Source of the DNA: Akebia trifoliata
Taxonomy: Eukaryota > Streptophyta > Magnoliopsida > Ranunculales > Lardizabalaceae
Length of the DNA: 64,000 bases
Assembly: GCA_017979445.1 (NCBI GenBank)
Contig: JADQWC010000333.1
Coordinates: 62,001-126,000, forward strand
Direction: 5' to 3'
Shown piece by piece: positions 533-59,529 of this stretch (positions within the stretch are counted from its first letter, which is position 1; each line of letters opens with the position of its first letter). The translations under genes were made by a program, and so were the position numbers. The notes under the pieces were generated by a model. The model saw only the letters and a program-made list of their open reading frames with translations. It had not been told where the DNA came from and ran no database searches.

Positions 533-2103
533 TGAAAGCGCCCTCGATCCACGGGGTGTGCGGATCCACTTTTAACCCTTGAGATTTGGGAGTCGCCACC
601 TAGTTATTATGGTCCAGGAACCAAAATGACTCTAAAATGGATAATGAACTAATCTACTACAGAAAATCTGAATTCAGGGATCATGTTACGGGGTTGGAAG
701 GTGTTAGGCACTAACCCCGCCCAGCCATTGCCGGTCTCTACTTATCCCAAATAAATCTACATCGCTAATGACAAACCTAGATTAAAAAATAATGAAAAAA
801 ACTTACCTTCGATCTGCAAAAGTGCTATTCCCTCAGATCTGGTGAAAACGACTTCTTATATCGTATTCCTAACTTCGTTCTATCTCCGGATCTAATTTCT
901 GATCTCCGAGGTAAGGTATCTTCTTCTTCGATTTGGATACTTTGAATTTGTTGTGGATTTTTGGAGTGTTTTTGAAATGTTTCTATGTGTTTTTTAGGCT
1001 AAAATCGAAGTAGGGGTGTTAGGGAAGGAGTTGGGGCTCCAAAATTAGGGTTTTGAGGAGATTGTGGAGGCTTCTTCACCTACTTTTTCTAGGATTTTTT
1101 CTTTGATACGAAAATAGGGTATGGAGGCTCTTTTTTATAACGTTTCTTAGAAGCATTAGGGTTTTATTAGGGTTTCTTTTAGGGTTTCAATTAGGGTTTA
1201 AACTTTTGTCTCATGAGATGGACTTAGTCTTTAGGGTTTTAATTTAGGGTTTTGACTTTTAGTCTAATGAGATTGACTTGATTAGTTTACATTAGGGTTT
1301 TGATTTAGGGTTTTGACTTTTAGTCTTATGAGATTGACTTGATTAGTATTTTGATTTAGGATTTTGACTTTAGTCTTATGAGATTGACTTTAACACTTTG
1401 ACTTTAGTCTTTCTTGGTTGACTTTAATGTTTTGACTTTAGCCTTACTTGACTTTGGTCTTACTTGATTGACTTTAATGTTTCACTTGACATTTTTTAAT
1501 GATTTATTTATTAATTTTGAAATTTTTAATTATTAAAGTTGTAAAATTACTATTTTGCCCTCGGAGAGGATTTTTTACGTTTTAAGTCATTTTTCAATGT
1601 TCTAGGATGTTTTGGAATCAGTTTTTCGTAAGGAATTCAATGAGAATGTTAGTTTTTGTCATTTATGAAATTTTTGTGTGAAATGATTATGAATTTTATG
1701 AGGGGTATTTTCGTAATTTTGTCATTTTTAGTGAAAATTGGCGAAGTGGTTTATTTGATTTCGATTTGTGGTTTTATGTGTTTGAATGGGTTTTCCTAAG
1801 CGTAACGTAGGTTCTAGAGTTGTTTTGATGTTTGGGGTATTTTGGTAATTTGATTATTTTTAGTGATTTTTATCGTGAAGCTTCTTTTTGGTCTGCAAGA
1901 TGATGATTTCTATGTTCCTGGGGTCATATTTTCCTAGCGTAGCGTGGTTTCTAAGTTTTGTCAGTTCGAGATACCTCATCCGAATTTCTGAAACATATCT
2001 GGTAACAAAATAAAGTATTGGAATAAACATCCATCATTGGGAACCGTTGCGATCGGGCTGACGAGTTGATTAATCAAGCGAGTGCAAAAATGGGGTGTCT
2101 ACA
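533..2103 (-). repeat. 5' LTR of element T0 (Ogre-type)
   Basis: This LTR is bounded by TGTA...TTCA on the minus strand, with a primer site next to its inner end. It is homologous along its length to the LTRs at 15517, 25411, 42057, 47443 and 57789, but lacks the GGACCCC...GGGGTCC palindrome seen in those. It carries a U5 hairpin near 545-565, the conserved stem-loop at 689-719, many TTAGGGTTT motifs at about 1150-1320 and TTGACT motifs at about 1255-1480. The TATA box found in sister LTRs is degenerate here (near 1130). Its outer end at 2103 abuts the T1 3' UTR, so T0 appears to be inserted in T1; the matching target duplication would lie left of the window. Confidence 0.92.
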
Positions 2104-15516: not shown

Positions 15517-17276
15517 TGAAAGCGCCCTCGATCCGCGGGGTGCGCGGATCCGCTTTTGACCCTTAAGGTTTGGGAGTCGCCACCTAGTTATTACGGTCTA
15601 GGAACCAATTTGACCCTACAATGGATAAAAAGAACTAATCTACTATAGAAATCTGAATCCGGGGATCATGTTACGGGGTTAGAAGGTGTTAGGCACTAAC
15701 CCCGCCCGGCCAATGCCGGTCTCTACTTATCCCAAATAGATCTACATTGCTAATGATAAAACCTAGATAAAAAAATAATAAAAAACCTTACCTTCGATCT
15801 ACAAAAGCACTATTCCTCAGATCTAAAAAACAGTTCCTTGTACCGTACTCCTTGCTTCGTTTTGTCTCCGGATCTGATTTCTGATCTCCGAGGCAAGGTG
15901 TGTCTCCTTCTTGGATCTGAATGCTTTGAATTTTGGTGGATTTTTGGGATTGTTTTTGGGTGTTTTTTAGGCTTAAAATAGGAGTAGGGGTGTTAGGGAA
16001 TGAGTTGGGGCTCCAAAATTAGGGTTTTGGAAGGGTTGTGGAGGCTTCTTCACCTACTTTTTCTAGGGTTTTTTCTTTTATACGAAAATAGGGTGTGGAG
16101 GCTCCTATTTATAAAGTTTTTAGAAGCATTAGGGTTTGATTAGGGTTTCTTTTAGGGTTTCAATTAGGGTTTTGACTTAGTCTTTAGGGTTTTAGGGTTT
16201 TGACTTTAGTCTTATGAGATTGACTTGATTAGTTTAGATTAGGGTTTGGATTTAGGGTTTTGACCTTAGTCTTATGAGATTGACTTGATTAGTTTAGATT
16301 AGGGTTTTGATTTAGGGTTTTGACTTTAGTCTTATGAGATTGACTTTAATTTTGACTTCAGTCTTGCTTGATTGACTTTAATTTTGACTTCAGTCTCACT
16401 TGATTGACCTTGACTTCAGTCTTGCTTGATTTACTTTTATTTTGACTTTGGTCTTATTGATTGACTTTAATATCTTGACTTTAGTCTTGCTTGATTGATT
16501 TTAAATTTTGGAGAACCCCTTTCTATTATATCTTTAATTCTTTGGACCCCCAAATGGAGGGGTCCTTAAAGAAATATCCCACGAACCCTCAACAATTTTG
16601 CTTGAGAGTCCAATTAATCGATTTTTTAGGTTCAACTTTTTAAATTAATTTCATTAATGTTTCACTTTAATTATTTAATATTTTATTTACTAATTTCGAA
16701 TTTTTTAATTATGAAAATTATGAAATTACCGTTTTGCCTTCGGAGAGGATTTTTTACGTTTTAAGTCGTTTTTCAATGTTCCAAGATGTTTTGAAATCAG
16801 TTTTTCGTAAGGAATTCAATGGGAATGTTGGTTTTTATCATTTATGAATTTTTTTTCGTGAAATGGTCGTGAATTTTATGAGGGGTATTTTCGTAATTTT
16901 GTCAAATTTTGTGAAATTTGTGAAATGATTTATTTGGTTTCGATTTGTCGTTTTATGTATTTGAGTGGGTTTTCCTAAGGTAATGTAGGCTCTAGGGTTA
17001 TTTTGATGTTAGGGGTATTTTGGTAATTTGGTCATTTTTTAGTGATTTTTATCGTGAAGCTTCTTTTTGGTTTGCAGGATGATGATTTTCTGTTTCTGGG
17101 GTAGTATTTCCTAACGTAGCGTGGTTTCTAAGTTGTTAGTTCGAGATACCTCATCCGGATTTCTGAAACATATCTGGTAACAAAATAAAGCTTGAATAAA
17201 CATCTATCATTGGGAACCTTTGCGATCGGGTTGACGAGTTGATTAATCAGGCGGATGCAAAAATGGGGTGTCTACA
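15517..17276 (-). repeat. 3' LTR of T3
   Basis: TGTAGACACCCC...GGGCGCTTTCA on the minus strand, 1760 bp. It is nearly identical to 25411-27189; differences include a short indel near 15900 and a paired G/A with C/T change in the LTR stem-loop (15674-15704). The polypurine tract adjoins it at 17277. On its other side lies T2 gag, not a primer site, so this is a 3' LTR. A GGACCCC...GGGGTCC palindrome lies near 16548-16569. Confidence 0.95.
16106..16113 (-). promoter_or_regulatory. TATA box of the T3 3' LTR
   Basis: TATAAATA on the minus strand, embedded in CTTTATAAATAGGAGCC. Directly upstream (16130-16320) are several AAACCCTAA motifs and AGTCAA words. Transcription would start about 30 nt further, near 16075. 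Confidence 0.8.
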
Positions 17277-18220: not shown

Positions 18221-18224
18221 CTAA

Positions 18225-18878
18225 GTATAATCTGAGAAAAAACCCTCGGCGATATCTGACTAAGCATAATCCGAGAAAGTCCTCGGTGGCAACTGGCTGA
18301 GCATAATCTGAGCAAACCCTCGATGACATCTGGCTGAGCATAGTTCGAGCAAACCCTCGGCGGCATCTGAACATAGTTCCGAGAAAGCCCTCGACGGCAT
18401 CTGAGCATAATTCCAAGAAAGCCTCGGCGACATCTGAGCATAATTCTGAGAAAGTCCTCGGCGGCAACTGAGCATAATTCCAAGAAAACCCTTGGCGGCA
18501 TCTGAGCATAATTCCGAGAAAACCCTCGGCGGCATCTGAGCATAATTCCAAGAAAATCCTTGGCGGTATCTGAGCATAATTCCGAGAAAACCCTCGGCGG
18601 CATCTGAGCATAGTTCCGAGAAAGCCCTCGGCGGCATCTGAACATAATTCCGAGAAAGCCCTCGGCGACATCTGAGCATAATTCCGAGAAAAACCCTCGG
18701 CGGCATCTGAGCATAATTCCAAGAAAACCCTTGGCGGATCTGAGCATAATTCCGAGAAAACCCTCGGCGGCATCTGAGCATAGTTCCGAGAAAGCCCTCG
18801 GCGGCATCTGAGCATAATTCCTAGAAAACCCTCGACGGCATCTGAGCATAATTCCAAGAAAATCCTTGGCGGTATCTA
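18225..18878 (-). repeat. 34-bp tandem array in T3 3' UTR
   Basis: About 19 copies of a unit reading GGCGGCATCTGAGCATAATT then CCGAGAAAACCCTC on the plus strand. Arms CCGAG/CTCGG or CCAAG/CTTGG fold in most copies. Because the unit is 34 bp and lacks stops on the minus strand, all three minus frames are open; the resulting 170-225 codon frames are repeat artefacts. Confidence 0.94.
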
Positions 18879-24648: not shown

Positions 24649-25391
24649 ACATTATCTCTCTGTTGTTTCCATTGGAGAAGAAGATGGAAAAAATAAAAAC
24701 CGTTTTTTGATTATTGCACACCAGCCATTCTTTGTAAAAACGTTGCTGTCCCCTTAATAGAAAAAAAAAATATATACATATTTTTTTTACCACCAGCCCC
24801 TTATTTTGTTAATCGTTGCTGCCCTTGCCCCTTTAACAGCACAAATTTTAAAACAAAAAAAAAATATTGCTGCCCCTTGGCAGCACATTAAAAACCCCTT
24901 TTTTTTTTTTAAAACGTGGCCGTCCATTGGCAGCACATTAAAATTTTTTTTTTAAAACGTGGCTGCCTGTTTTTTTTCTTAAAGAAAAATGTAATGCCAA
25001 AGGGCAAACTGACTGAAAAATAAAATAAAAAATAAAAAATGTCAAAGGACAGATCGATTCCTGAAATAATAAATAAGAAACTAAAAAATCTATATAGTGT
25101 AACAACTATCACTCCATCCTTAATGCAATCATCCTTTAAAATCCTAAATTATTTAGGGTTGTTCCAAATGGCCCTCAATTGAACCGCAAAAGTAATGCTT
25201 GATTGAACCATAAAAATAATATGTCGAGATATCTAATACTCAAAAATACATGCTCAATAATCGAATCAAAACACAAAAATGCAAATAAAATAATAAATAA
25301 ACAAATAAATCAACAAATAAATAAAAAACATTCTAGCTAATTTTAGCAATGCTCCCATACTTGGGGTTTTTCAAGTCTAATCCTCAAAAGG

Positions 25392-25409
25392 TCCCCAGTG
25401 GAGTCGCCA
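25392..25409 (-). other. Primer binding site of T3 (tRNA-Arg)
   Basis: Minus strand TGGCGACTCCACTGGGGA, one nucleotide from the LTR end. It matches 18 of 18 bases of the complement of the 3' end of plant tRNA-Arg (with CCA). This marks 25411-27189 as a 5' LTR for the unit to its left. Confidence 0.93.
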
Positions 25410-25423
25410 CTGAAAGCGCCCTC

Positions 25424-25444
25424 GATCCGCGGGGTGCGCGGATC
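25424..25444 (-). promoter_or_regulatory. U5 terminal hairpin
   Basis: GATCCGCG, loop GGGTG, CGCGGATC: a perfect 8-bp GC-rich stem 13 nt from the LTR end. It is perfect also at 15530-15550, in the solo LTR and in the T4 LTR (loop GGGTA), and imperfect in the LTRs at 533 and 42057. Confidence 0.8.
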
Positions 25445-25567
25445 CGCTTTTGACCCTTGAGGTTTGGGAGTCGCCACCTAGTTATTACGGTCTAGGAACC
25501 AATTTGACCCTACAATGGATAAAAAGAACTAATCTACTATAGAAATCTGAATCCGGGGATCATGTTA

Positions 25568-25598
25568 CGGGGTTGGAAGGTGTTAGGCACCAACCCCG
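25568..25598 (-). promoter_or_regulatory. Conserved LTR stem-loop with CCTAACACCTT loop
   Basis: CGGGGTTGG / CCAACCCCG stem (9 bp) around the 13-nt loop AAGGTGTTAGGCA; on the element strand the loop is TGCCTAACACCTT. The T3 3' LTR has the paired change CGGGGTTAG / CTAACCCCG (15674-15704). T2 has an unrelated 11-bp stem around TACCTAACACCTT (39458-39492). Confidence 0.8.
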
Positions 25599-26009
25599 CC
25601 CGGCCAATGCCGGTCTCTACTTATCCCAAATAGATCTACATTGCTAATGATAAAACCTAGATTAAAAAAATAATAAAAAACCTTACCTTCGATCTACAAA
25701 AGCACTATTCCCTCAGATCTAAAAAACAGTTCCTTGTACCGTACTCCTTGCTTCGTTTTGTCTCCGGATCTGATTTCTGATCTCCGAGGCAAGGTGTCTC
25801 CTTCTTGGATCTGAATGCTTTGAATTTGTGGTGGATTTTTGGGATGTTTTTGGGAGGTTTTTGGGTGTTTTTTAGGCTAAAATAGGAGTAGGGGTGTTAG
25901 GGAATGAGTTGGGGCTCCAAAATTAGGGTTTTGGAAGGGTTGTGGAGGCTTCTTCACCTACTTTTTCTAGGGTTTTTTCTTTTATACGAAAATAGGGTGT
26001 GGAGGCTCC

Positions 26010-26017
26010 TATTTATA
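26010..26017 (-). promoter_or_regulatory. TATA box of the T3 5' LTR
   Basis: TATAAATA on the minus strand in the context CTTTATAAATAGGAGCC. Nine TTAGGGTTT (AAACCCTAA on the element strand) motifs lie upstream between 26032 and 26223, and about 15 TTGACT or TTGACC words between 26070 and 26400. Confidence 0.82.
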
Positions 26018-27531
26018 AAGTTTTTAGAAGCATTAGGGTTTGATTAGGGTTTCTTTTAGGGTTTCAATTAGGGTTTTGACTTAGTCTTTAGGGTTTTAGG
26101 GTTTTGACTTTAGTCTTATGAGATTGACTTGATTAGTTTAGATTAGGGTTTGGATTTAAGGTTTTGACCTTAGTCTTATGAGATTGACTTGATTAGTTTA
26201 GATTAGGGTTTTGATTTAGGGTTTTGACTTTAGTCTTATGAGATTGACTTTAATTTTGACTTCAATCTTGCTTGATTGACTTTAATTTTGACTTCAGTCT
26301 CACTTGATTGACCTTGACTTCAGTCTTGCTTGATTTACTTTTATTTTGACTTTGGTCTTATTTGATTGACTTTAATATCTTGACTTTAGTCTTGCTTGAT
26401 TGATTTTAAATTTTTGGAGAACCCCTTTCTATTATATCTTTAATTCTTTGGACCCCCCAAATGGAGGGGTCCTTAAAGAAATATCCCACGAACCCTCAAC
26501 AATTTTGCCTGAGAGTCCAATTAATCGATTTTTTAGGTTCAACTTTTTAAATTAATTTCATTAATGTTTCACTTTAATTATTTAATATTTTATTTACTAA
26601 TTTCGAATTTTTTAATTATGAAAATTATGAAATTACCGTTTTGCCTTCGGAGAGGATTTTTTACGTTTTAAGTCGTTTTTCAATGTTCCAAGATGTTTTG
26701 AAATCAGTTTTTCGTAAGGAATTCAATGGGAATGTTGGTTTTTATCATTTATGAAATTTTTTGCGTGAAATGGTCGTGAATTTTATGAGGGGTATTTTCG
26801 TAATTTTGTCAAATTTTGTGAAAATTTGTGAAATGATTTATTTGGTTTCGATTTGTCGTTTTATGTATTTGAGTGGGTTTTCCTAAGGTAATGTAGGCTC
26901 TAGGGTTATTTTGATGTTAGGGGTATTTTGGTAATTTGGTCAATTTTTAGTGATTTTTATCGTGAAGCTTCTTTTTGGTTTGCAGGATGATGATTTCTAT
27001 GTTTCTGGGGTAGTATTTTCCTAACGTAGCGTGGTTTCTAAGTTTTGTTAGTTCGAGATACCTCATCCGGATTTCTGAAACATATCTGGTAACAAAATAA
27101 AGCTTGGAATAAACATCTATCATTGGGAACCTTTGCGATCGGGTTGACGAGTTGATTAATCAGGCGGATGCAAAAATGGGGTGTCTACAGATGCCCCTCT
27201 TGGCAGAGGGTTGAAGCAAACTAGATAGCAAATCTATTTTGGTAGAAAATGCGATATCCGAATGCCAAAGCTAGTGACAGTTCATTTTGTAGCCTGATTT
27301 AGCAATTCGTCGGGGTGTTCGGATCCTTGAAGGTTAAACTCTCCCCGAACTAAAAGGTTGTCAGGTCCTCGAGCGAGAGCTCTCACTGATGGCGTCAGAT
27401 CCTTGAATTTTAAAGAATTCTCCCTGACTAAAAGAATAAGTGTGCAAGTGTGTGCACTGTGTGAAACTGAGTAAAATCTGAGCATAAACTAAGCATAACT
27501 GAGCATAAATTGAGCATAAAAAAAATGAATG

Positions 27532-28132
27532 TCTTACTTTACCTACTCTGGGTGAAAGAGTAATAAACAATTTTTTTTTGGAAAGTTTTACTCTACCTAC
27601 TCGGAGTGAAAGAGTAATGAACTATTTTTTCTAGGAGTCCTACTCTACCTACTCGGGGTGAAAGAGTAATGAATTCTTTTTCGGGAGTTCTACTCTACCT
27701 ACTCGGGGTGAAAGAGTAATGAACTATTTTTTCTGGGAGTTTTACTCTACATACTCGAGGTGAAAGAGTAATGGACTTATTTTCTGGGAGTTTTACTCTA
27801 CCTACTCGGGGTGAAAGAGTAATGAACTATTTTCGGGAGTTCTACTCTACCTACTCGGGGTGAAAGAGTAATGAACTATTTTCGGGAGTTCTACTCTACC
27901 TACTCGGGATGAAAGAGTAATGAACTATTTTTGGGAGTTCTACTCTACCTACTCAGGGTGAAAAAGTAATGAACTATTTTTTCTAGGAGTTTTACTCTAC
28001 CTACTCGGGGTGAAAGAGTAATGAACTACTTTTTTCTGGGAGTCCTACTCTACCTACTCGGGGTGAAAGAGTAATGGACTAATTTCCTGGAGTTCTACTC
28101 TACATACTCGGGGTGAAAGAGTAATGAACTAT
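27532..28132 (-). repeat. 50-bp tandem array, second copy
   Basis: About 12 units nearly identical, unit by unit, to 17621-18220, with the same TACTCT/AGAGTA arms. The unit-by-unit match supports duplication of the whole 3' UTR rather than independent array growth. Confidence 0.94.
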
Positions 28133-28134
28133 CT

Positions 28135-29040
28135 AAGTATAATCTGAGAAAACCCTCGGCGATATCTGACTAAGCATAATCCGAGAAAGTCCTCGGTGGC
28201 AACTGGCTGAGCATAATCTGAGCAAACCCTCGATGACATCTGGCTGAGCATAGTTCAAGCAAACCCTCGGCGGCATCTGAACATAGTTCCGAGAAAGCCC
28301 TCGACGGCATCTGAGCATAATTCCAAGAAAGCCCTCGGCGACATCTGAGCATAATTCTGAGAAAGTCCTCGGCGGCAACTGAGCATAATTCCAAGAAAAC
28401 CCTTGGCGGCATCTGAGCATAATTCCGAGAAAACCCTCGACGGCATCTGAGCATAATTCCAAGAAAATCCTTGGCGGTATCTGAGCATAATTCCGAGAAA
28501 ACCCTCGGCGGCATCTGAGCATAGTTCCGAGAAAGCCCTCGGCGGCATCTGAACATAATTCCGAGAAAGCCCTCGGCGACATCTGAGCATAATTCCGAGA
28601 AAACCCTCGGCGGCATCTGAGCATAATTCCAAGAAAACCCTTGGCGGTATCTGAGCATAATTCCGAGAAAACCCTCGGCGGCATCTGAGCATAGTTCCGA
28701 GAAAGCCCTCGGCGGCATCTGAGCATAATTCCGAGAAAACCCTCGACGGCATCTGAGCATAATTCCAAGAAAATCCTTGGCGGTATCTGAGCATAATTCC
28801 AAGAAAACCCTTGGCGGCATCTGAGCATAGTTCCGAGAAAACCCTCGGCGGCATCTGAGCATAATTCCAAGAAAACCCTTGGCGGCATCTGAGCATAGTT
28901 CCGAGAAAACCCTCGGCGGCATCTGAGCATAATACCAAGAAAACCCTTGGCGGTATCTGAGCATAATTCCAAGAAAACCCTTGGCTGCATCTGAGCATAA
29001 TTCCGAGAAAACCCTCGGCGGCATCTGACTAAGCATAATC
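28135..29040 (-). repeat. 34-bp tandem array, second copy (longer)
   Basis: About 27 units. The first part follows 18225-18878 closely; the extra units are absent from the first copy. Most units pair as CCGAG/CTCGG or CCAAG/CTTGG. Confidence 0.94.
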
Positions 29041-29592
29041 CGACAAAGCCCTCGGCGGAAACTGAGCAAAATCCAAGATAACCCTTGGCGGAAACTGAGC
29101 AAAATCCAAGATAACCCTTGGCAGCATCTGAGCAAAATCCAAGTTAACCCTTGGCGGCATCTGAGCAAAATCCAAGATAACCCTTGGCGGCAACTGAGCA
29201 AAATCCAAGATAACCCTTGGCGGAAACTGAGCAAAATCCAAGATAATCCTTGGCGGCATCTGAGCAAAATCCAAGATAACCCTTGGCGGCAACTGAGCAA
29301 AATCCAAGATAACCCTTGGCGGCAACTGAGCAAAATCCAAGATAACCCTTTGCGGAGACTGAGCAAAATCCAAGATAACCCTTGGCGGCAACTGAGCAAA
29401 ATCCAAGATAACCCTTGGCGGAGACTGAGCAAAATCCAAGATAACCCTTGGCGGAGACTGAGCAAAATCCAATATAACCCTTGGCGGCAACTGAGCAAGG
29501 TCCAAGATAACCCTTGGCGGAGACTGAGCAAAATCCAAGATAACCCTTGGCGGCAACTGAGCAAAATCCAAGATAACCCTTGGTAGAGACTG
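29041..29592 (-). repeat. 33-bp tandem array
   Basis: About 16 units of CGGCAACTGAGCAAAATCC followed by AAGATAACCCTTGG. The unit is related to the 34-bp unit but one base shorter, so each minus frame encodes a constant 11-residue repeat (for example ILDFAQLPPRV). Arms CCAAG/CTTGG are kept in nearly all units. A shorter array of the same type is in T4 (49540-49890). Confidence 0.93.
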
Positions 29593-30278: not shown

Positions 30279-31211
30279 TTGAACAGAATACCAGCTCAAA
30301 TCAGTATGTTTGACCTACTTTTAAACTCAGAGCATCATCGGGAAGCATTAATCAAAGTCCTTAGTAATGCGTATATACCTGAGACCACCTCGCCAGAAGA
30401 GTTGGAAAAGACAGTAGGTCAGATCATGGCCTCCAATCCGATCACCTTCACCGATGATGAACTTATTAGCGGAGGATATGGACACATTGAACCACTGCAC
30501 ATTATGATAATGTGCAAAGGTATGATGGTAGCAAGGGTACTGATCGACAATGGTTCGACTCTTAATGTTTGTCCTATACAAACTGTGCACAAGTTAAACG
30601 CGGATTTATCTTACCTCAGGCCAACTAGAAGGACCGTAATGGCTTTTGATAGTAGAAAAACTGAGTCGTTAGGGGAACTGGATCTCCTAGTCACTATTGG
30701 ATCATGCACGTTTGAAGTGACATTTGAGATTCTGGACATACCCTCAGCATTCAATCTCCTTCTAGGAAGACCCTGGATCCATACCGCAGGGGCAGTCCCC
30801 TCTTCCTTGTATCAACGAGTCAAATTCATCATGGGACAGAGGATGATATCGGTCCTCACAGAAAATCTCATACCAGTTGATCGATCGCCGAATGTGCCTT
30901 ATATCGATGTGAAAATGACTGGAGACAGAGAGGGATTTCACGCCTTCCAGTTCACATCTATCAATCATATCCAAAGGGGAAAAGAGAAAACAAGGGCAAG
31001 GTGGTCAAAAACAAACTTGATGATCAGACGAGTGATGAAGAAGGCGGGATATCGTCTGAGACAAGGGTTAGGGTCAAAAGGAAAGGGCAAGGCCACTTTG
31101 ATCAGCATGCGAAAACACACTCCCTACTTTGGTCTTGGATTCAAGCTTACGAGGAAAGATATCTCTGATATGAAAGACAAAAAGAGGGAGCTTCGACTTG
31201 CACGAAGATAG
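30279..31211 (+). CDS. pol: T2 protease with G-patch-like tail
   Basis: Open for 310 codons. Aspartic protease active site VLIDNGSTLNVCPI (residues about 97-110), flap and end motif LLGRPWIH (about 160-168), then a glycine-rich G-patch-like tail GYRLRQGLGSKGKGK (about 256-270). This is the best preserved T2 domain; the catalytic DNG is intact. It is part of a polyprotein, so the first Met shown is only the start of the open stretch after a stop at about 30276. Role: cleavage of Gag-Pol. Confidence 0.88.
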   Translation: MNRIPAQISMFDLLLNSEHHREALIKVLSNAYIPETTSPEELEKTVGQIMASNPITFTDDELISGGYGHIEPLHIMIMCKGMMVARVLIDNGSTLNVCPIQTVHKLNADLSYLRPTRRTVMAFDSRKTESLGELDLLVTIGSCTFEVTFEILDIPSAFNLLLGRPWIHTAGAVPSSLYQRVKFIMGQRMISVLTENLIPVDRSPNVPYIDVKMTGDREGFHAFQFTSINHIQRGKEKTRARWSKTNLMIRRVMKKAGYRLRQGLGSKGKGKATLISMRKHTPYFGLGFKLTRKDISDMKDKKRELRLARR

Positions 31212-37535: not shown

Positions 37536-38721
37536 TGTAAACACCCCAATTTGCACGAACCCGTTAGGAAGATCCAAATTTCTTCGAATTGATTTAGATT
37601 TAAAACTCAAGATTTTCGACGGACATTGCTATTTTGCATCATTTTCATGCATACATGCATCATGTCATATAGTTTGTATGCTCAACCTTATCCCTAACCC
37701 ACTCCAAATTTGTATTCATTCTCCATTAACCGATCCATATCCATACCCTCATCATGGTCCACTCCCTAACCAAATCTAAGCCCAAAACAAAATCCATATT
37801 TTAACCTAAATTCAAACCCATTCTCTAAGTCCTAAACCCAATTACCCAAATCCATTACCTAGCCAACCTAAGCCCAAAACCCAACGCCATCCTAAACCCA
37901 ATGACCCAAATCCATTACCTAACCAACCTAAGTCCAAAACCCAATGCCATCATAAACCCATAACCTAAGTCCATATCCTAATCCTAACCCAAATCCAAGC
38001 CCAACACCAAGCCCACTCCAAGTCCATTCTCTTACCCCTTTATAAGATGACACATGTTGATACCTCATAAGCCTCCAATACCCAATGCATCATCTAATTG
38101 GAGGGTCAACTTCCCTTTTGTAAAAACTCAAGAATGCCCTTCTCAAAAAGTTTAGTCAAACCAAAAAGGTTATTTGGTCTTTGATAATAATCTATAAAGG
38201 TGAGGGAACTTCCCATTATGCCCTCAAAAGGTGAAAATCTTCAAGTACATACATAGAGTTCTTCCATTGGTCCATTTCAAAATTATACTTCCACCCTTGC
38301 TTTATTTGTTATTTACAAATGAACCAAGATCTACTTTTCACCTACTACTTCACCTTTACACATGTCATTCTCCTATTCACCCTCCCAAAAGTACTTTTGT
38401 TCTTCCATTGGTCCATTTCAAAATTATACTTTTACCCTTGCTTTATTTGTTATTTACAAATAAACCAAGATCTACTTTTTACCTACCACTCCACCTTTAC
38501 ACATGTCACTCCCTTATTCACCCTCCCAAAAATATTTTTGTCCTCTCACCTCTATTTACCAAAAAACCAATGATCAAATAATGCTTTTAGGATTTCTTCA
38601 CAAATGTCATCTTTGCCCTCATACAAATGGAAAATCTAAAAAGAAACAACCTAAATCTCATGTCCATTTTCGTTATTTTTAGGGTTTGACCACTTTATCC
38701 CCAAAAGTTCTCTAAAAACTC

Positions 38722-38729
38722 TATAAATA
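38722..38729 (+). promoter_or_regulatory. TATA box of the T2 LTR
   Basis: TATAAATA in the context AACTCTATAAATACCCTC. A transcript would start about 30 nt downstream near 38755, giving U3 of about 1.2 kb. Confidence 0.8.
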
Positions 38730-39457
38730 CCCTCATTTTTTATGAGCAATTTATGCTCTCAAGCCCCCATCTCTCAACCTAAAACTCTACCAAAATTTCT
38801 ACTCATTCTCTCATCTTCTAAACTTCAACCCAACCTTCAACCATCTCACTCAACTCTCAAGTTTTCTTTTCAAGGTTCAAGTTCATCAAAGGACAAGGTG
38901 GGGTTTAACATGTAGATTTTATTTCAAAGCTTGCATATCCTTCTTCTAACCCTCTATTTTATTTTCTTTTTAGAAATCCTATAGGATGTGATGAATACCC
39001 TCTCACATCCCCGGTAGATTAGACTAAGGTTCGATCGAAAGGATGGGGGTTGAAGCCATTTTAACCTTAGTTTCATGCATCATATTGTACACAATGCACA
39101 CACTCACTCATGCATGGCAATAATGAAGAAATGTGTCACCCTCTTGATGGGGTAAAACACTAAGTTTCTAGCCATGCATACATGCATCAAGGTTGTGGCT
39201 TCAAGGGAACTCCATCATGGAGTCTCTCTAAGAGCTTAAACCAACATTCATTTCATGAATGCAATGTGATTACATGGGTCATTCTCTTCCATAGAATGCC
39301 CCTTAATGTCATTTTGAAATCAAAACCCTTTTGAAAAGGGAACATTTCATTTTAATGCACACACCACCCTTGTCATGCATTCTCATGCATTTTTAATGTT
39401 TGTTTTCTCAAGTTTTTACAAAATAAAATGGCCAAGCAAGGTAACCACATTTGGTGG

Positions 39458-39492
39458 AGAGGATGGGGTACCTAACACCTTCCCCATCCTCT
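39458..39492 (+). promoter_or_regulatory. Conserved LTR stem-loop (T2 version)
   Basis: AGAGGATGGGG / CCCCATCCTCT, a perfect 11-bp stem around the 13-nt loop TACCTAACACCTT. The loop differs from that of T0, T1 and T3 LTRs by one base, while the stem sequence is unrelated. Confidence 0.85.
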
Positions 39493-39684
39493 AACCGAAC
39501 CTCCTTACCTAGATCTTAGGTAGACTTTGCCCTTTCCAACAAATGAGAGTCACTACAATGCCATGAAAAAAATAATTTTCAAAAAATCAATTCAGGTGCC
39601 CATTCACACCCATTTTCAAAAAAGAATGGTGGCGACTCCAAACAAAGTAGCATTGAGGTTCATTATGAACATTTCATGTCTACA

Positions 39685-41153
39685 ACGTCGCATCTCCGAA
39701 GAGACCGGGCCACGCACTAGTGCCACGTTGGCTATATAGGACGTGTAAGTGTGCAAAACAGTAAACGTGTATGTGATGTGTGCAAAACAGGGTGGGGTGT
39801 GCCCGGGGTCTTTTTCAAACAAATGGGCTTGTGGGCCTGATCATATCATCATACATTGGATCACATGAATATTTAATCAAGACCAACACCATTCTAATCA
39901 TATGAATATTTAATTAAGATCAACACCATTCTAATCACATGATTAAAGACAAGTATAATCAAGCATATATCAGTGGTAAATCCATCAATGAATATAACAT
40001 GGAATAACTAATCCATTCCAAAATTCTTTTATATCCAAATCAAATGGATCTTTTTTTTATGATCCAATCAAAGGGTTATTTTGGGTATCCCAAAATAATT
40101 TAAAACCCCAAAAGTTTTAAATTGAAGACGAAACGATGATTGTTAAGATAAGGAACGATAATTCTCTTTTGACAAATTGAAAGTTTTTTTTTTTTTTAAT
40201 TTTTCCAAGGAAAACCAAAAACTATCTTCTTTTTTTTATTTAAAAAGATGATTTCAAAAACCCAAAAAAAAAAAAACTATTGCTAAAAAGAAGAAAAAAA
40301 AATTAAAAAATTCAACCTAAAAAGATTATTTATTACCACACCAAATTGTACTTTCACTATCAAAGAAATATTGATCGACATCGTGAGAGATGTGCTCCAA
40401 GTACGAGTTGGTGTGACAATAGATAACAGATTATTACACACATCTCTCGAGAAAGGGCTGCCATCGAATCACTTCTCGATCAGTCTTATTCTTTTTTCTA
40501 TGATTAACAAGGAATTTAAGTTTCTGCATATTTTAAAAAAAAAAAAAAACTACAGCAAAGTCTCATATAAAACGTTCCAATAGGTTCAAACAAATCCAGA
40601 ATTTTGGTTATTCTATCGGGAAAAAAATCAGATTCAAAAATCGAACCATCATAAATCACCATTAAACTTCACAAACATCTCATACAACAGAACGCTTCTC
40701 TGATGGCCTCTGGCAGAACGGATTAAATTATTCAAATTAAAATAAACCAATTTTCCTTCAACTTTAATAATCAAACCGGCCTGTGATCTTATAAAGGAAA
40801 GAAAAATCATTGGTTGAAGTTTCTCAAAAATCTGAAATTTTAATGGAGCTTCAATGAATAACACAAACCAGGGAAGAAAACAACGTTTTTCTTGAATCAC
40901 ATGGGACGCTAAATCGTGTGGAAAAGAAAACTAAAAGAGTTTAAGGCTTCGAAAGGTTTCCTATATCGACCATTGAATATGGATTGATGGATCATCTCAC
41001 ACTGTTCAACGACTCCAAAATCGTGATGATTCATGGTTTCCGATCCTTTATCTCTCTCTCTACCCATAACCAAACAACGCTCATAGTCGTTACTGAGATT
41101 TATGCTTCGAAGTATATTTCCATTGCCACAATTTCCCCTCTTAAAAGAGGTAC

Positions 41154-42056: not shown

Positions 42057-43723
42057 TAAAAGCGCCCTCGATCCGCGGGGTGCGCGAATCCGCTTTTGAC
42101 CCTTGAGATTTGGGAGTCGCCACCTAGTTATTACGGTTTAGGAACCGAATACTGAATCTAAACGGATAAAGAAACTAATCTACTAAAGAAAAACTGAATC
42201 CGGGGATCATATTACGGGGTTGGAAGGTGTTAGGCACCAACCCCGTCTAGTCAATGCCGGTCTCTACTTATCCCAAATAAGACTATATTGCTAACAAAAA
42301 CTTAGATAGAAAAAATAAAAGAGATTTTACATTCGAACGCAACGGTTTTATTCCCTCAGATTTGATAAAACTACTCCTTGTACCGTACTCCTTACTTCGT
42401 TCTGTCTCCGGATCTGATTTCAGATCTCCGAGGTAAGGTATCTCTTCCTTAGATCTGAATTCTTCGAATTTTATTATTAATTTTAGAGTATTTTTGAAGG
42501 ATTTCTAGGTGTTTTTCAGGCTAAAATCGAAGTATGGGTGTTAAGTAAGGAGTTGGGATTTCAAAATTAGGGTTTGTGGGAGGTTAGGGAAGCTTTTTGA
42601 CCTACTTCTCTTAGGATTTTTGATTTGATACGAAAATAGGGTGTGGAAACTCCTATTTATAAAGTTTTTTTTAGAAGAATTAGGATTTGATTAGGGTTTC
42701 TTTTAGGATTTTAATTAGGATTTTGACTTTAGTCTTATGAGATTGACTTAGCTTTTACGGTTTTAATTTAGGATTTTGACTTTAGTCTTATGAGATTGAC
42801 TTGATTAGTTTAGATTAGGGTTTTGGTTTAGGGTTTTGACTTTAGTCTTATGAGATTGACTTGATTAGTTTAAATTAGGGTTTTGACTTTAGTCTTATGA
42901 GATTGACTTAATACTTTGACTTTAGTCTTACTGATTGACTTTAATTTTTGGAGAACCCCCTTTTATTATATCTTTAACTCTTTGGGCCCCCAGATGAAGG
43001 GGTCCTTGAATAAATATCCTGGCAACCATCAATAATTTTGCTTGGAAGCCTGATTGATCGATTTTTTGGTTTAAAATTTTAAATTAATTTTATTAATATT
43101 TCACTTTACATTATTTAATAGTTTATTTATTAATTTCAAAATTTTTAATTATTAAAACTGTAAAATTATCGTTTTACCCTCGGAGAGAATTTTTTGCGTT
43201 TTAAGTCGTTTTTCAATGTTTCATGATGTTTTGGAATCAATTTTTCATAAGGAATTCAATGGGAATGTTGGTTTTTGTCATTTATGAAATTTTTTGTATG
43301 AAATGGTCTTGAACTTTATGAAGGGCATTTTCATAATTTTGTCGAATTTTGTGAAAATTGACAAAATAATATATTTGATTTTGATTTGTTATTTTATGTC
43401 TTTGAATGAGTTTTCCTAATCGTAACGTAGGCTCTAGGGTTATTTTGATGTTAGGGGTATTTTGGTAATTTGATTAATTTAGTGATTTTTATCGTGAAGC
43501 TTCTTTTTGATCTGCAAGATGATGATTTCTATGTTTCTAGGGTCGTTTTTTCCTAGCGTAACGTGGTTTCTAAGGTTTTGTCAGTTCAAGATACCTCATC
43601 CAGATTTCTAAAACATATCTGGTAACAAAATAAAGCATTGGAATAAACATCCATCATTGGGAACCGTTGCGATCAGGTTGACGAGTTGATTAATCAGGCG
43701 AGTGCAAAAATGGGGTGTTTACA
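42057..43723 (-). repeat. 5' LTR of T1
   Basis: 1667-bp LTR of the same family, TGTAAACACCCC start on the minus strand and an end in TTTTA instead of TTTCA. TATA box at 42654-42661 (minus), stem-loop at 42215-42245 (perfect), U5 hairpin with one mismatch, palindrome GG-CCCC/GGGGTCC near 42984. Its outer end at 43723 abuts the Athila-like RT. Confidence 0.93.
42654..42661 (-). promoter_or_regulatory. TATA box of the T1 5' LTR
   Basis: TATAAATA on the minus strand, in the same context as in T3. Upstream lie TTAGGGTTT and TTGACT words, fewer than in T3. Confidence 0.78.
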
Positions 43724-45593: not shown

Positions 45594-47442
45594 TTAATCT
45601 GAACATTCTTGAAGACTTGGAGAATCCCTTCTAATTTTTTTCTTTTTTTTATTGTCTGCTAGTTTATGTGAAAATGGGGACTTTGGAATTTTAATTTGAT
45701 TTTCCAATGGTGGAACAATTTCTTTTTGTTGGTCTTCTTCTTCGATGGGCAGTGCATTTTGGATTTTCCCTTGTATTGGGATCTTATTGGGCATGTGCAC
45801 TTGGTTATCTACTAAGCTACCAGAATGTAGTGTGTAGACTGCTTGTATAGAGTCATTAAAAGGACCAGGTTGACTCTCTATTTCATAATGCCCTTTCGGA
45901 GCAATTCCTCTTAGGTTGGACACGGTTTGACTTGAAAATTACCCTTTATTTTTCTCCTCTAGAGATAAGACTATTTGACCTCATTGAACCTCAAATTTGT
46001 TAATTGCTTGCATATTAACTTGATTTATTTGTGCTTGACTCTGGTTGGTCTATAATTGTTACTGCATGATTTGATGTATTTATTGTTGTTGCTTTAACAT
46101 CTCTACCATTATTAACTCTAATGGAGAGTTTGTTTGTGTAACTAAGGGAGAATAATTGTTCATAGGATCGACAACAATCATCCTTTGATCAAAAGTATGA
46201 GGTGAAAAGTAAGATGATTGTAGAACCAAAGATAGGTTCGCATTGGACTGAGGTTGTCTGTTGTAGCTCTTTTGGAAACCAGGAGTACTACCCTGTTGAA
46301 TAGGTTCATTCTGACAATAAGAAAATTTTGGATGAAACCTATTGTCTGGATGGTATGTCTGACTATAAGAATTGGGAGTGAATTTCCTAAAAATGCTATA
46401 TGACCCAATAGCATTGGTTTGTTCTACCTTGAATATGGGTAGATTGGGACAGCTCTCTTAGCACAAGGGTGGTCGAAACTTTTGCATAAGAGACATGCGA
46501 AAGGTATCTCTGTTGTAACTTGTAATATTAGGTTAACCTCTTGTTGGTAGTTTTAATACTAAAATCACCAAACTTCTAGTTCAAGTTTTGCATAGTACTA
46601 ACTAGACTAATCATTATATTTTTTTAGATCAGGATTACTTTTGATCTCGTACATGCCTGTTTTATTGGCTCATAAGTCACCTCTATTAAAGTCTCCTAAA
46701 TTTGTGCTCCAATTTCGAGTATTTTCAATGAGTTCTATGAGGAACTCATAAATTTGATTCAGAGTCTGACTCATGAATTTTCCTTTATGCATAGACTCCA
46801 AGAGAATACGCAGAGCTGTATTAAGATCACGATAGAAGAAATTAACCAGTTGGACTTTATCAATCCCATGATGTGGGCATTTTATAAGCAGGTCTTAAAA
46901 CTTTCCTAGGTTTGAAAAAATTCTTCATCAGATTTTCCCTTGAAGTTCCTAATGGCATTTTTGAATTATTCCATTTTTGCCATTGAAAATAACTTGGCCA
47001 TGAATTTTCTTGATAACTCGTCCCATGTAGTGATCGAGTTAAAGGCCAAAAAATTTAACTATGTTACAGTATGATCTTCTTATGATAGAGGGAACAGTCT
47101 CAACTTAACATTTTCTACGTTGAGGTAACCATTTTGAAAAGTTTGACACAAGGTCAAAAATTTGTTAAGATGATTATAGGGTTGTTCACTCTCGAAACCA
47201 TAAAACTTAGGAAGCATGTTGATAGTAGTTGTCCTAATTTCAAATTATACCGCATTAGTTGTTAACAAGGCAATACATGAAAGGGGAGTAGCTGTAGTAG
47301 GGGCGAATAACTCATTTAGAATTCGTTGATCTTCTCGGACAACTTGAGGTGGGGCAATTGGTTGAGTCATCTCGGGTGTCTGAAGGATAGGTGAGGAATC
47401 AAATTCTCTTCTAATCCATTGAAGTGGGTGAGATCTTGTGAT
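45594..47442 (-). pseudogene. gag: Athila-like gag, broken and truncated at its start
   Basis: The frame nearest T4 (47245-47442) reads SITRSHPLQWIRREFDSSPI and REDQRILNELFAPTTATP. Downstream, in broken frames, WDELSRKFMAKLFSM, CPHHGIDKVQLVNFFYRDL and SNLRGIAPKGHYEIESQPG are seen, the usual Athila gag landmarks. The apparent upstream residues MATPKPQGQKRIRVPRGSR come from the LTR at 47443, not from gag. Confidence 0.82.
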
Positions 47443-49115
47443 TGAAAGTGCCCTCGATCCGCGGGGTACGCGGATCCGCTTTTGACCTTGAGGTTTGGGA
47501 GTCGCCACCTAGTTATTACGGTCTAGGAACCGATCAATGATTCTAAACGGATAAAAAACTAATCTATAACAGAAAAAAACTGAATTCAGGGATCACATTA
47601 CGGGGTTGGAAGGTGGCCAAAGCTGGTCTCTACTAACTTCCCAAATAAGTTACATTGCTAAAAAAAACCTAGATAAAAAAAAAATTATACATTTCCGATA
47701 GCAAAGACCTTGTTCCCTCAGATCCGACAAAAATTGCTCCTTGTACCGTACTTCTTGCTTCGTTCTGTCTCCGAGGCAAGGTATCTCCTTTCTTCCGATC
47801 TAGATTCTTCAAGTTTATTATGGATTTTGAGGTATTTTTGAAGGGTTTTTAGGTATTTTTTAGGCTAAAATTGAAGAAGGGATGTTAAGTAAGGAGTTAG
47901 GGCTCCAAAACTAAGGTTTATGGGAGGCTATGGGGGCTTTTTGACCTACTTCTCTTAGATTTATGATTTGATACGAAAATAGGGTGTGAGGACCTCTATT
48001 TATAGATTTTTTTTAGGGGTTGATTTAGATAGAATTAGTGTTTGATTATAATTCTTTTAGTTAGAGTTGTGTTTTAGTTAAACTTGTTTAAAGTAGAGTT
48101 GTGTTTTAATTAGAATTGTTTTAGTTAGAACTCTATTAGATAGAGTTATTATTTAATTAGAACTCTATTATGATTTTGACTTTTTGTCTTATTTGATTGA
48201 CTTTTAATATTTTGACTTTAGTTTTAATTGATTGACTTTTAATATCTTGACTTCAGTCTTGCTTAATTGACTTTAATTTTGACTTTAGTCTCACTTGATT
48301 GATTTTAAGACCTTGACCTTAGTCTTTCTTGATTGGCTTTAAATTTTTGGAGAACCCCCCTCTATTATATCTTTAATTCTTTGGACCCCCAAATAGAGGG
48401 GTCCTTAAAGAAATATCTCACAAACCCTCAATAATTTTGCCTGAGAGTCCGATTGATCGATTTCTTTAGTTCAAAATTTTAAATTAATTTCATTAATGTC
48501 TTACTTTAATTATTTAATATTTTATTTATTAATTTCAAAATTTTTAATTATAAAAATTGTGAAATTACCATTTTGCCCCCAAAGAGGACTTTTCACGTTT
48601 TAAGTCGGTTTTTAATGTTCTAGGATGTTTTAGAATCGATTTTTCATAAGGAATTCAATGGAAATATTAGCTTGTGTCATTTATGAAATTTTTTGTGTGA
48701 AATGATCATGAACTTTATGAGGGGCATTTTCATAATTTTGTCAAATTCTATTAAAATTGACGAAATGATTTACTTAATTTCGATTTGTTGTTTTATGTGT
48801 TTGAGAGAGTTTTCCTAAGCGTAACGTAGGCTCTAGGGTCGTTTTGATGTTAGGGGTATTTTGGTAATTTGGTCATTTTTAGTGATTTTTATCGTAAAGG
48901 TTCTTTTTGTCTGAAAAATGATGATTTCTAAACTTCTGAGGTTATATTTTCCTTGCGTAGTATGGTTTCTACAGTTTTGTCAGTTCTAGATACCTCATCC
49001 GGATTTCTGAAACATATCTAGTTAAAGCATTGGAATAAACATCCATCATGGGGAACCATTGCGATCGGGTTGATGAGTTGATTAATCAGGTGGATGCAAA
49101 AATTGGGTGTCTACA
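47443..49115 (-). repeat. 3' LTR of T4
   Basis: 1673 bp, TGTAGACACCC start and CACTTTCA end on the minus strand, polypurine tract adjoining at 49116. Its conserved stem-loop is destroyed: after GGGGTTGGAAGGTG about 24-26 bp present in the solo LTR are missing. TATA box at 47997-48004 (minus). It belongs with the solo LTR at 57789 to a sub-group sharing AGAGTTGTGTTTTAGTT repeats in U3. Confidence 0.93.
47997..48004 (-). promoter_or_regulatory. TATA box of the T4 3' LTR
   Basis: TATAAATA on the minus strand (plus TATTTATA), in the context CTATAAATAGAGGTCC. Confidence 0.75.
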
Positions 49116-49130: not shown

Positions 49131-49539
49131 CAGAGGGTTGAAGCAAACTAGATAGTAAATCTATTTTAGTAGATAGTGCGATATCCGAATGCTAAAGCTA
49201 ATGACAGTTTATTTTGCAGCCTGATTTAGCAATTCGTCGCGGTGTTCAAATCCTTGAGGGTAAAGCTCTCCCCGAACTAAAAAAATGTCAGGTCCTTGAG
49301 CGCAAACTCTCATTGACGGTGTCAGATCCTTGAATTTTAGAAAATTCTCCTTAACTGATGTAACAACTGTGCAAGTGTGTAGACTTACAATCTGAGATAA
49401 ATTTGAGTAAAATCTGAGCACAAATTAGGCATAAATTGAGCATAAACTGAGCATAACTGAGCATAGACTGAGTATAATTGAACATAATTTGATCATAAAC
49501 TGAGTATAAACTGAGCATAAACTGAGCATAATTCCGAGA

Positions 49540-49890
49540 AAACCTTCGGCGGCAACTGAGCAAAATCCAAGATAACCCTCGACGGCAACTAAACAAAATC
49601 CAAGATAACCCTTGGCGACATCTGAGCAAAATCCAAGATAATCCTTGGCGGCAACTGAGCAAAATCCAAGATAACCCTTGACGGCAACTGAGCAAAATCC
49701 AAGATAACCCTTGGCGGCATCTGAGCAAAATCCAAGTTAACCCTAGGCGGCAACTGAGCAAAATCCAAGATAACCTTTGGCGGCATTTGAGCAAAATCCA
49801 AGATAATCTTTGGCGGTATTTGAGCAAAATCCAAGATAACCCTTGGCAGTAACTGAGCAAAATCCAAGATAACCCTTGGCAGTAACTAAG
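49540..49890 (-). repeat. 33-bp tandem array in T4 3' UTR
   Basis: About 10 units of GGCAACTGAGCAAAATCCA followed by AGATAACCCTTGGC, the same unit as 29041-29592 but more diverged. CCAAG/CTTGG arms are present in most units. Confidence 0.92.
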
Positions 49891-50719
49891 CAAAACTGAC
49901 AGAGGAATGAAGGAATTTTGAGAAAAATGAATGAATTTGGAGAAGACTAATTAAAATGAATCGGAGGACAAATAAATCTGGAAGATAATGAATCTAGAAA
50001 AGAAATGATCGAATCCAAGAATGATTGGATCTGAAAAAGAAACTGGGAATGAAAGAATGTCATATTTCCTAATGAGTTATTAGTTGATCTCTGGACACAG
50101 TCAAATGTGAGATCCGAAGTACTTTTGTTTGAACCTCAATGTTTTATCCAAAAAATTTCATGAATTTAAAACCTGAGTTTTTATTTCTTTTGAACCTCAA
50201 GGGTTCTTCGAAAAACTGTTATCAAGAGGGTAACCTTAAATTTGGGGTTCTCATTATCTTTTAGGATTAACATTGCTCAAAAACAAAATGCCCCAAGTTT
50301 GACAATGAATATGGCCTTGAAAATAATTGAACACATCATGCAAAAAAAAAAAAATGCCCTTAGTATAAGGGGTAAAAGTTACATTACAGAAGAAAGAAAA
50401 TGCCCCTTGTATGAAGGTTTGAAATATTTGATTGCCACAAGCGCAATAAAAATCAAACTTTTAATTTTGATTAATTTTATTGAAGATTTTGAGTCAGGCT
50501 CAAGAGAACAAAATATTTCCTTTTGGGACTCATCATAGAATTCACCATTTTCTCCATTGGTTCACTCGGGGAAGTAAACATTTTCAGATCTATCGTAGAC
50601 AAGATACTATTGGCTTATGAGCCTATGCCTGGTTTAAGCTAAGTATTGAACTTGATTATTCAGATTTCTGATGTTTCAGCTTAGACCGCTCTCAGCTTGG
50701 GATCTTCTTCTATTTTTAT

Positions 50720-57788: not shown

Positions 57789-59529
57789 TAAAAGTGCCCT
57801 CGATCCGCGGGGTGCGCGGATCCGCTTTTGACCCTTGAGGTTTGGGAGTCGCCACCTAGTTATTATGGTCTAGGAACCGATCAATGACTCTAAATGGATA
57901 AAAACTAATCTAAAACCAAAAAAACTGAATTCGGGGATCATGTTACAGGATTGGAAGGTGTTAGGCACCAACCCCGCCCGGTCAAAGCCGATCTCTACTA
58001 AATTCCCGAAGATATCACATTGCTAAAAACCTAGATTAAAATAAAAATAAAAATTTCATACCTTTCCGATAGCAAGGATTTTGCTCCCTCAGATCTGACA
58101 AAAAGAGCTCCTTGTACTGTACTCCCTTACTTCGTTATATCTCCGGATTTGACTTCAAATCTCCTTAATCAAGGTATCTCTTTATTTCTGAATCTGAACT
58201 CTTCAAGTTTGTTACAGATTTAATGGTATTTTTAGAGGGATTTTAGATGTTTTCTAGACTAAAATTGAAGGGGGGATGTTAGGTAAGGAGTTGGGGCTCC
58301 AAAACTAGGGTTTATGGGGGGCTAAGGGAGCTTCTAGACCTACTTCTCCTAGGGTTTATGATTTTATACGAAAATAGGGTGTGAGCACCTCTATTTATAG
58401 ATTTTTTTAGGGGTTGATTTGGATAGAGTCAGTGTTTAATTAGAGATCTTTTAATTAGAGTTGTGTTTTAGTTAAAATTGTTTTAGGTAGAATTGTGTTT
58501 TAATTAGAATTGTTTTAGGTAGAATTGTTTTTAAGTTAGAACTCTATTAGATAGAGTTATTATTTAATTGGATCTCTATTATGACTTTTGGTCTTATTTA
58601 ATTGACTTTTAATGTTTTGACTTTAGTCTTAATTGATTGACTTTTAATATCTTGACTTCAGTCTTGCTTAATTGACTTTAATTTTGACTTCAGTCTCACT
58701 TAATTGACTTTAATACCTTGACTTCAGTCTTGCTTGATTTACTTTTAATTTTTGGAGAACCCCCTTCCATTATTTCTTTAATTCTTTGGACCCCCAAATG
58801 GAGGGGTCCGTAAAGAAATATCTCATGAACCCTCAACAATTTTGCTTGAGAGCCCGATTGATCGATTTCTTTGGTTCAAAATTTTAAATTAATTTCATTA
58901 ATGTTTAATTTTAATTATTTAATATTTTATTTATTAATTTCAAATTTTTTAATTATGAAAATTGTGAAATTACCGTTTTGCCCCCGGATAGGACTTTTCA
59001 TGTTTCAAGTCGGTTTTTAATGTTTTAGGATGTTTTAGAATCGATTTTTCGTAAGGAATTCAATGAGAATGTTGGTTTGTGTCATTTATGAAAATTTTTA
59101 TGTGAAATGATTGTGAACTTTATGAGGGGCATTTTCGTAATTTTGTCAAATTCTGTTAAAATTGGTGAAATAATTTATTTGATTCTGATTTATCATTTTA
59201 TATGTTCGAATGGGTTTTCCTAAGCGTAGCGTAGGCTCTAACGTTGTTTTGAGGTTAGGGGTATTTTGGTAATTTGGTCAATTTTTAGTGATTTTTATCG
59301 TGAAGCTTCTTTTTGGTTTGCAAGATGATGATTTCTATGTTTCTAGGGTCGTATTTTCCTAGCGTAGCGTGGTTTCTAAGGTTTTGTCAATTCGAGATAC
59401 CTCATCCGGATTTCTGAAACACATCTGGTAACAAAATAAAGCAATGGAATACACATCCATCATTGGGAATCATTGCGATCAGGTTGACGAGTTGATTAAT
59501 CAGGCGGACGCAAAAATGGGGTGTCTACA
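57789..59529 (-). repeat. Solo LTR inserted in T4 gag
   Basis: 1741-bp LTR of the T1/T3/T4 family (minus strand TGTAGACACCCC...GGCACTTTTA), no internal region, flanked by the 5-bp duplication CACAA. U5 hairpin perfect near 57802-57822; conserved stem-loop weakened by two mismatches (57946-57976); TATA box at 58392-58399 (minus). It most likely arose by recombination between the two LTRs of a full element. Confidence 0.95.
58392..58399 (-). promoter_or_regulatory. TATA box of the solo LTR
   Basis: TATAAATA on the minus strand (plus CTATTTATAG). It could still drive transcription toward T4 gag and protease. Confidence 0.7.

Follow-up and report, generated by a model that had tools for sequence, protein, structure and literature searches.

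Do the long terminal repeats (LTRs) at this locus encode an RNA hairpin whose loop is held nearly constant while its stem changes freely, and if they do, what might the element use it for? In the whole stretch of DNA that was analysed (64,000 nucleotides, the window), an earlier note had described a perfect 11-bp stem with a 13-nt loop in the LTR of element T2, and a common 9-bp stem in the LTRs of elements T0, T1 and T3. The hairpins found there, which we call SL1, are as follows:

39458..39492, + strand: SL1 of T2, 11-bp stem AGAGGATGGGG/CCCCATCCTCT (11/11 pairs) with the 13-nt loop TACCTAACACCTT
42215..42245, - strand: SL1 of T1 (A family), 9/9 pairs around TGCCTAACACCTT
25568..25598, - strand: SL1 of the T3 right LTR (A family), 9/9 pairs around TGCCTAACACCTT
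15674..15704, - strand: SL1 of the T3 left LTR, 9/9 pairs around TGCCTAACACCTT, differing from the right LTR by a paired change
689..719, - strand: SL1 of T0 (A family), 8/9 pairs with one A-C mismatch
57946..57976, - strand: SL1 of an additional A-family LTR, 9/9 pairs including G-T pairs

The T2 hairpin is correct in both sequence and coordinates. The perfect 9-bp stem holds for T1 and both T3 LTRs but not for T0. The paired change GG/CC to AG/CT between the two T3 LTRs is present as claimed, and the T0 stem is its half-changed state, with the 5' change alone giving the A-C mismatch. The stem of T2 is indeed unrelated to those of the five LTRs of the other lineage, and the loop is 13 nt long in all of them. 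Folded as RNA together with SL0 (a small adjoining hairpin, below), SL1 of T2 has an energy of -25.2 kcal/mol (z -4.37); the five window hairpins that were folded range in z from -4.37 (T2) to -1.78 (T0), and of four other copies three lie at -3.5 to -4.8 and one (L028) at -1.32.

Where the hairpin lies in the LTR, and what else the two lineages have in common there, can be seen from the following features:

37536..39684, + strand: LTR of T2 (TGTAAACACCCC ... TGTCTACA), interpreted as its 3' LTR (element on the + strand), with a TATA box at 38722
25411-27189, - strand: right LTR of T3, with a TATA box at 26017
25391..25410, - strand: T3 primer-binding site, complementary over 18 nt to the tRNA-Arg 3' end
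39628..39639, + strand: U5 motif GGTGGCGACTCC of T2
42113-42124 and 25467-25478, - strand: U5 motif GGTGGCGACTCC of T1 and of the T3 right LTR
15573-15584, 589-600, 57845-57856 and 47498-47509, - strand: U5 motif GGTGGCGACTCC of other copies

The T2 and T3 right LTRs (2.1 and 1.8 kb) have six identical stretches of at least 11 nt in common, four of which consist largely of A or do not keep the same order. Only the SL1 loop CCTAACACCTTCC and the U5 motif GGTGGCGACTCC are collinear, and these are the two blocks common to otherwise unalignable Tat-type LTRs. The U5 motif includes TGGCGACTCC, the 10 nt with which the tRNA-Arg primer-binding site begins. The 3' edge of SL1 is 192 nt (T2) and 157 nt (T3 right) from the LTR end, inside the 150-220 nt proposed before. 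The exact 11-mer CCTAACACCTT of the loop occurs seven times in the window, six times in LTRs and once in a coding region (56057), and with up to one mismatch it occurs nine times against 1.16 expected, a count reached by 0/100 shuffles. In one further LTR (47442-49115, - strand) a small deletion has removed the 5' arm of SL1 and most of the loop, and the U5 motif is intact.

Both blocks are abundant in the host genome (652.5 Mb), where the reversed pattern served as control. The loop CCTAACACCTTCC has 16,321 sites (8,137 and 8,184 on the two strands; reversed pattern 26, that is 12 and 14), and the U5 motif has 15,663 exact sites (7,726 and 7,937; control 23 and 16). Spacing was measured on the first 100 listed places each of loop and U5 anchor on contig C1: the exact 13-mer lies upstream in 64/100 anchors and the anchor downstream in 64/100 loops, at a distance of 104-113 or 151-163 nt in 63 of the 64 pairs and 74 nt in one. 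Because selection by the loop makes the loop seem invariant, copies were then sampled by the 3' anchor instead. Among the 36 anchor places that lack the exact 13-mer, 32 copies (L119-L150) were retrieved and four left out. In 27 of the 32 a loop with at most three mismatches lies 107-164 nt upstream, and in five it does not, which brings the loop (0-3 mismatches) to 91 of 96 anchor places in total. Across copies it has the form U(G/A)CCUAACACCUU. As a control, a loop 16-mer matched 39 chance loci, 14 in viral and 25 in prokaryotic contigs; none of these has a comparable stem (the best, L167, pairs at 8 of the first 9 positions and is broken in the middle), and TGGCGACTCC was not found within 600 nt of any of them in the flanking sequence covered. 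Some host-genome copies (for example L080, L081 and L085) are stemless and resemble the chance loop matches.

The loop is thus carried by many copies, but is the stem around it kept by pairing? Stems among the copies include CGGGGTTGG/CCAACCCCG, AGAGGATGGGG/CCCCATCCTCT, ATGGAGTAGGG/CCCTACTCCAT, GGAGAAAAGGG/CCCTTTTCTCC, GAGGGACAAGG/CCTTGTCCCTC and GTGAGACAAGG/CCTTGTCTCAC, as well as the A' stem CGGGTTCGG/CCGAAACCCG with one bulged A. Two alignments were built, one for each spacing class: B (loop-anchor spacing about 155; 35 of 37 non-redundant copies plus T2, 36 sequences, L023 and L111 having been left out by eye as misassigned) and A (A plus A', spacing about 110; 36 of 39 copies, with L089, L090 and L099 left out as misassigned). 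RNAalifold recovers SL1 in both. In B, 90.6% of cells are paired (74.0% when shuffled), 88 cells carry double changes (32.0) and the covariation score is 0.617 (0.301), with both-side changes in 9 of the 11 stem pairs; the corresponding values in A are 94.4% (87.6%), 21 (7.2) and 0.352 (0.228), and 0/500 shuffles reach any of these six values. When the partner arm is slid out of register, pairing drops to 53-67% and 24-71% in the two alignments. Two other counts are not outstanding: shuffles reach the number of pairs changed on both sides in 140/500 and 73/500 cases, and the number of further pair types in 84/500 and 45/500.

Descent was taken into account with trees built from the sequence 3' of SL1 (B, 76 tips; A, 63 tips with A' excluded). 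Against a tree-aware simulated null, stem pairs take the first six ranks among the 231 column pairs of B, three of them with E<0.05; the A family has no significant pair under this null, which would reflect its little between-family divergence. Where B copies change away from a paired state, pairing is kept in 39/51 cases on internal branches and in 45/117 at tips (Fisher p 9e-6), and changes to G-U versus A-C number 13:6 on internal branches, a small excess but one that points the right way, and 28:28 at tips. The internal/tip contrast in B indicates that proliferating lineages retain the pairing and that dead copies lose it; the contrast is absent from the A family (6/16 versus 39/73). The earlier suggestion that the pairing is under selection is supported by covariation against shuffles in A and B, and in B only by the tree-aware null and the internal/tip contrast. 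The fixed-loop hairpin is confirmed, in stronger form than first described, and matched-pair changes such as those of its stem are characteristic of an RNA structure on which the element depends.

The same matched changes bear on whether the loop could be a DNA-binding site, for example one like the MYB AC element, the inverted repeat being incidental or forming a cruciform. The T2 loop does contain ACCTAAC, which we take to resemble an AC element, and the site is strongly conserved. However, most other loops have GCCTAAC, the site in the majority of A and B copies is hundreds of bases 3' of the TATA-like box, and a protein that binds duplex DNA has no need of matched changes in the stem arms. 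A DNA site without pairing, which the earlier note had set against its own proposal, does not account for these matched changes, and we consider the whole reading very improbable.

A TATA-like box is found 411-438 nt before the loop in 26/32 A copies, and in B 434-757 nt before it in 14/22 copies and 156-197 nt before it in three more; only 1/28 A' copies has one. As SL1 lies downstream of this box and upstream of the LTR end, it is probably part of the transcribed leader. To what kind of element does the leader belong? Ogre, a subclade of Tat, has a tRNA-Arg primer-binding site and an extra ORF before gag. The 18 nt of the T3 primer-binding site are complementary to three of four tRNA-Arg genes found in the same genome (3' ends compared with CCA added), and to the fourth with one mismatch, so that its primer makes T3 a candidate Ogre element. 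T2 has on the + strand, in order, ORFs for RT, RNase H, RVT_3 and integrase, and then the LTR; its RVT_3 is taken as an additional RNase H (aRH). Passages of Neumann et al. 2019 (PMC6317226) give the aRH as the criterion of the Tat lineage, place it after RH and before INT in Ogre and Retand, list tRNA-Arg among the non-chromovirus primers and describe an intron between two polyprotein ORFs in Ogre. Judged by its ORFs, T2 would therefore be a Tat element of Ty3/gypsy. For the A-family elements a scan of four ORFs gave RT and RNase H only, and they are assigned to Tat by their likeness to T2. RT of the two lineages is 70% identical over 159 residues.

SL1 has the following neighbours in T2, the first two of them taken from folds:

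39445..39457, + strand: SL0, a small hairpin (CCAC..GTGG) adjoining the 5' side of SL1
39506..39522, + strand: SL2, a weaker hairpin (TACCTA..TAGGTA)
39545..39556, + strand: GAGAGTCACTAC, the complement of the U5 motif

SL0 covaries across the B copies. Its stem occurs as CCACC/GGTGG, CCGCC/GGCGG, CCACT/AGTGG, CCATC/GATGG and CCACA/TGTGG, and forms a mean of 4.22 of 5 pairs in 67 B copies (3.84 shuffled, 0/500 as high) and 3.67 in 79 A copies (3.43 shuffled, top shuffle 3.61). In SL2, 68.1% of cells are paired (60.7% shuffled), with a covariation score that 1/500 shuffles reach.

The surroundings of SL0 and SL1 are consistent with a role in forming the RNA 3' end. A T-rich tract spans -90 to -60 in the A copies (fraction of T in 10-nt bins 0.53-0.77; weaker in A') and -80 to -50 in B (0.56-0.63), where an A-rich block follows at -50 to -40 (0.57); these blocks, 40-90 nt upstream, look like a plant poly(A) signal. 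SL0-SL1 might then be an element that loops out the distance between this signal and the cleavage site, which is the main rival of the reading preferred below but, we think, rather doubtful; an equally tentative detail is that cleavage would fall at the AA directly after the SL1 stem, making it the R/U5 border. The T-rich tracts, the A-rich block of B and the AA, which is invariant in both alignments, all favour it. So does one LTR fragment (L238, G000 C12:12904710) that contains about 1 kb of upstream sequence including U3, stops just past the 3' arm (CCAACCCC, then T) and continues with 13 A, possibly the trace of a natural RNA 3' end. It is, however, a single fragment of its kind, and the same trace would be left by recombination into an A-rich stretch; a wider search gave a few other LTR matches with A runs, at different offsets, and a search for A-tailed copies by an upstream pattern found none. 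Furthermore, the T tract is weaker in A' copies, the loop does not contain AAUAAA, and bringing two sites together does not need a specific 13-nt loop.

What, then, could the loop pair with? Against tRNA-Arg it does no better than against shuffled tRNAs, 0.70 and 0.71 of which pair equally well, and this partner was rejected. An antisense match to the loop is present in the pol region of A-family elements in the window (56057, exact; 7043, one mismatch), where the peptide NQGVRAYDNTKRD, in the likely coding frame, is open in the 7043 copy and has one stop in the 56057 copy. The counterpart of this peptide in T2 (30615-30686, 46% identity) has different residues at the spot of the loop match, and the closest stretch to the loop complement in the T2 internal region has 3 mismatches of 11. 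A partner in pol was rejected as well: T2 lacks the match, which is a coding coincidence of A-family elements.

Within the leader, the loop could kiss or make a tertiary contact with the U5 motif (CACC/GGTG, GCC/GGC) or SL2, as a switch at the primer-binding site. The U5 motif is the best loop-pairing leader segment in at least 73/92 A copies and at least 28/76 B copies, but shuffled leaders are on average equal or better in 27% (A) and 38% (B) of cases. The U5 motif also has its complement in the leader: the energy fold of the T2 leader pairs GAGAGTCACTAC with it, 89.5% of cells in the GAGAGTCACTAC/GTGGCGACTC helix are paired, its covariation score is reached by 5/500 shuffles, and copy L028 has one compensated pair. 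Shuffled sequences nevertheless give 88.8% pairing (the observed value is reached by 74/500), and with so little variation this pairing is unproven. We regard the kissing contact as decidedly unlikely. Somewhat less unlikely, though still a long shot, is that the loop and the U5 copy of the primer site form a single leader switch, in which the copy would act as a decoy primer site that times tRNA-Arg placement; such a layout is not described in the titles and abstract starts among the literature matches listed.

The reading that we prefer, and to which we would give an even chance, is that SL1 is a conserved leader RNA hairpin of Tat-type Ty3/gypsy elements, with a loop that is recognised in trans and serves packaging or primer placement. 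SL1 would lie in the 5' leader (the R/U5 part) of the genomic RNA, beside SL0 and upstream of the U5 stretch that repeats the initial 10 nt of the primer-binding site, and would be transcribed and fold in the cell. There a helix of free sequence would present the nearly fixed, single-stranded loop, and a partner in trans (Gag nucleocapsid, a host protein or another RNA) may recognise the letters held by this clamp; recognition in trans is suggested by a fixed loop on an arbitrary helix. In our judgement the module would mark or fold the full-length RNA for packaging and primer placement. We favour this role because the hairpin is near the primer-binding site and has a copy of it in U5, and the packaging and primer signals of other LTR elements are in the leader, close to that site. 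The poly(A)-like surroundings favour the 3'-end role, which an upstream plant-like poly(A) signal suits equally. Also against the leader-element reading, no loop partner was found in tRNA-Arg, the T2 internal region or the leaders, and all of the evidence for it comes from one genome. What marks a structured LTR leader element, a covarying helix in the leader, is found here, its transcription being read from the TATA-like box and the LTR structure.

LTR leader hairpins are already known as a kind, and we class SL1 with its U5 copy of the primer-binding site as a new form within that kind. The lentiviral poly(A) hairpin in R has AAUAAA in its loop and stems that vary between lineages. SL1 of plant Ty3/gypsy elements resembles this HIV/SIV hairpin in being in the R/U5 leader with fixed loop content and lineage-variable stems, and differs from it in having no AAUAAA in the loop and only a putative 3'-end function. 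Primer activation signals and the tRNA contact boxes of Ty1 and Ty3 are in or near U5 and are related to the primer tRNA, as is the U5 motif; unlike them, the U5 motif repeats 10 nt of the primer-binding site itself, and the SL1 loop has no tRNA match. The packaging and dimerization stem-loops of retroviruses (psi, DIS), which are recognised by Gag or another RNA, are likewise in the leader near the primer-binding site, whereas SL1 has a non-palindromic loop, is inside the LTR and has only putative Gag binding. Passages of Benachenhou et al. 2013 (PMC3601003) describe LTR models and link conservation in long R regions to stem-loops, and thus seek conserved LTR structure as we do; the two plant clades in those passages are Ty1/copia (Sire, Retrofit), however, and their Table 1 has no plant Ty3/gypsy clade.

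Rfam 15 covariance models gave 0 matches at E up to 1 in window positions 39300-39800 and 25400-26050. The hairpin is not named in titles and abstract starts among the open-literature matches listed, nor in the passages of PMC3601003, PMC6317226, PMC12786077 and PMC11963269 that were searched. When the loop 11-mer and the loop and U5 strings were looked for in papers, no transposon paper was recognisable by title among the matches listed, and the string match in a passage of PMC3419647 is a gene primer. Little work seems to have been done on cis-acting RNA signals in plant LTR retrotransposons; in its main text, a 2025 review of host factors in their life cycle (PMC12786077) does not use the terms packaging signal, dimerization, hairpin or stem-loop. 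The SL1 loop, present about 16,000 times in one genome and carried on covarying stems, can serve as a defined bait with which to look for a binding partner, mark the R/U5 part of Tat-type LTRs and help to detect LTRs that have decayed.

Two observations concern repeated LTR parts. Window positions 15517-18877 and 25411-28788 match at 98.3% over 3,388 columns that span the LTR and the adjoining tandem arrays, so the T3 right LTR may be common to a neighbouring tandem copy; such arrays, whose repeat units measure about 22 to 57 bp, are at 12489-13861, 13949-14310, 17622-18877, 27535-29580 and 49520-49895. Elsewhere in the genome, at G000 C1:5886254-5896939, seven U5 motifs lie on the same strand within about 10.7 kb, spaced 0.8-3.3 kb apart as if LTR parts were in tandem, and the three copies fetched from this run (L135, L136 and L150) have one loop change in common.
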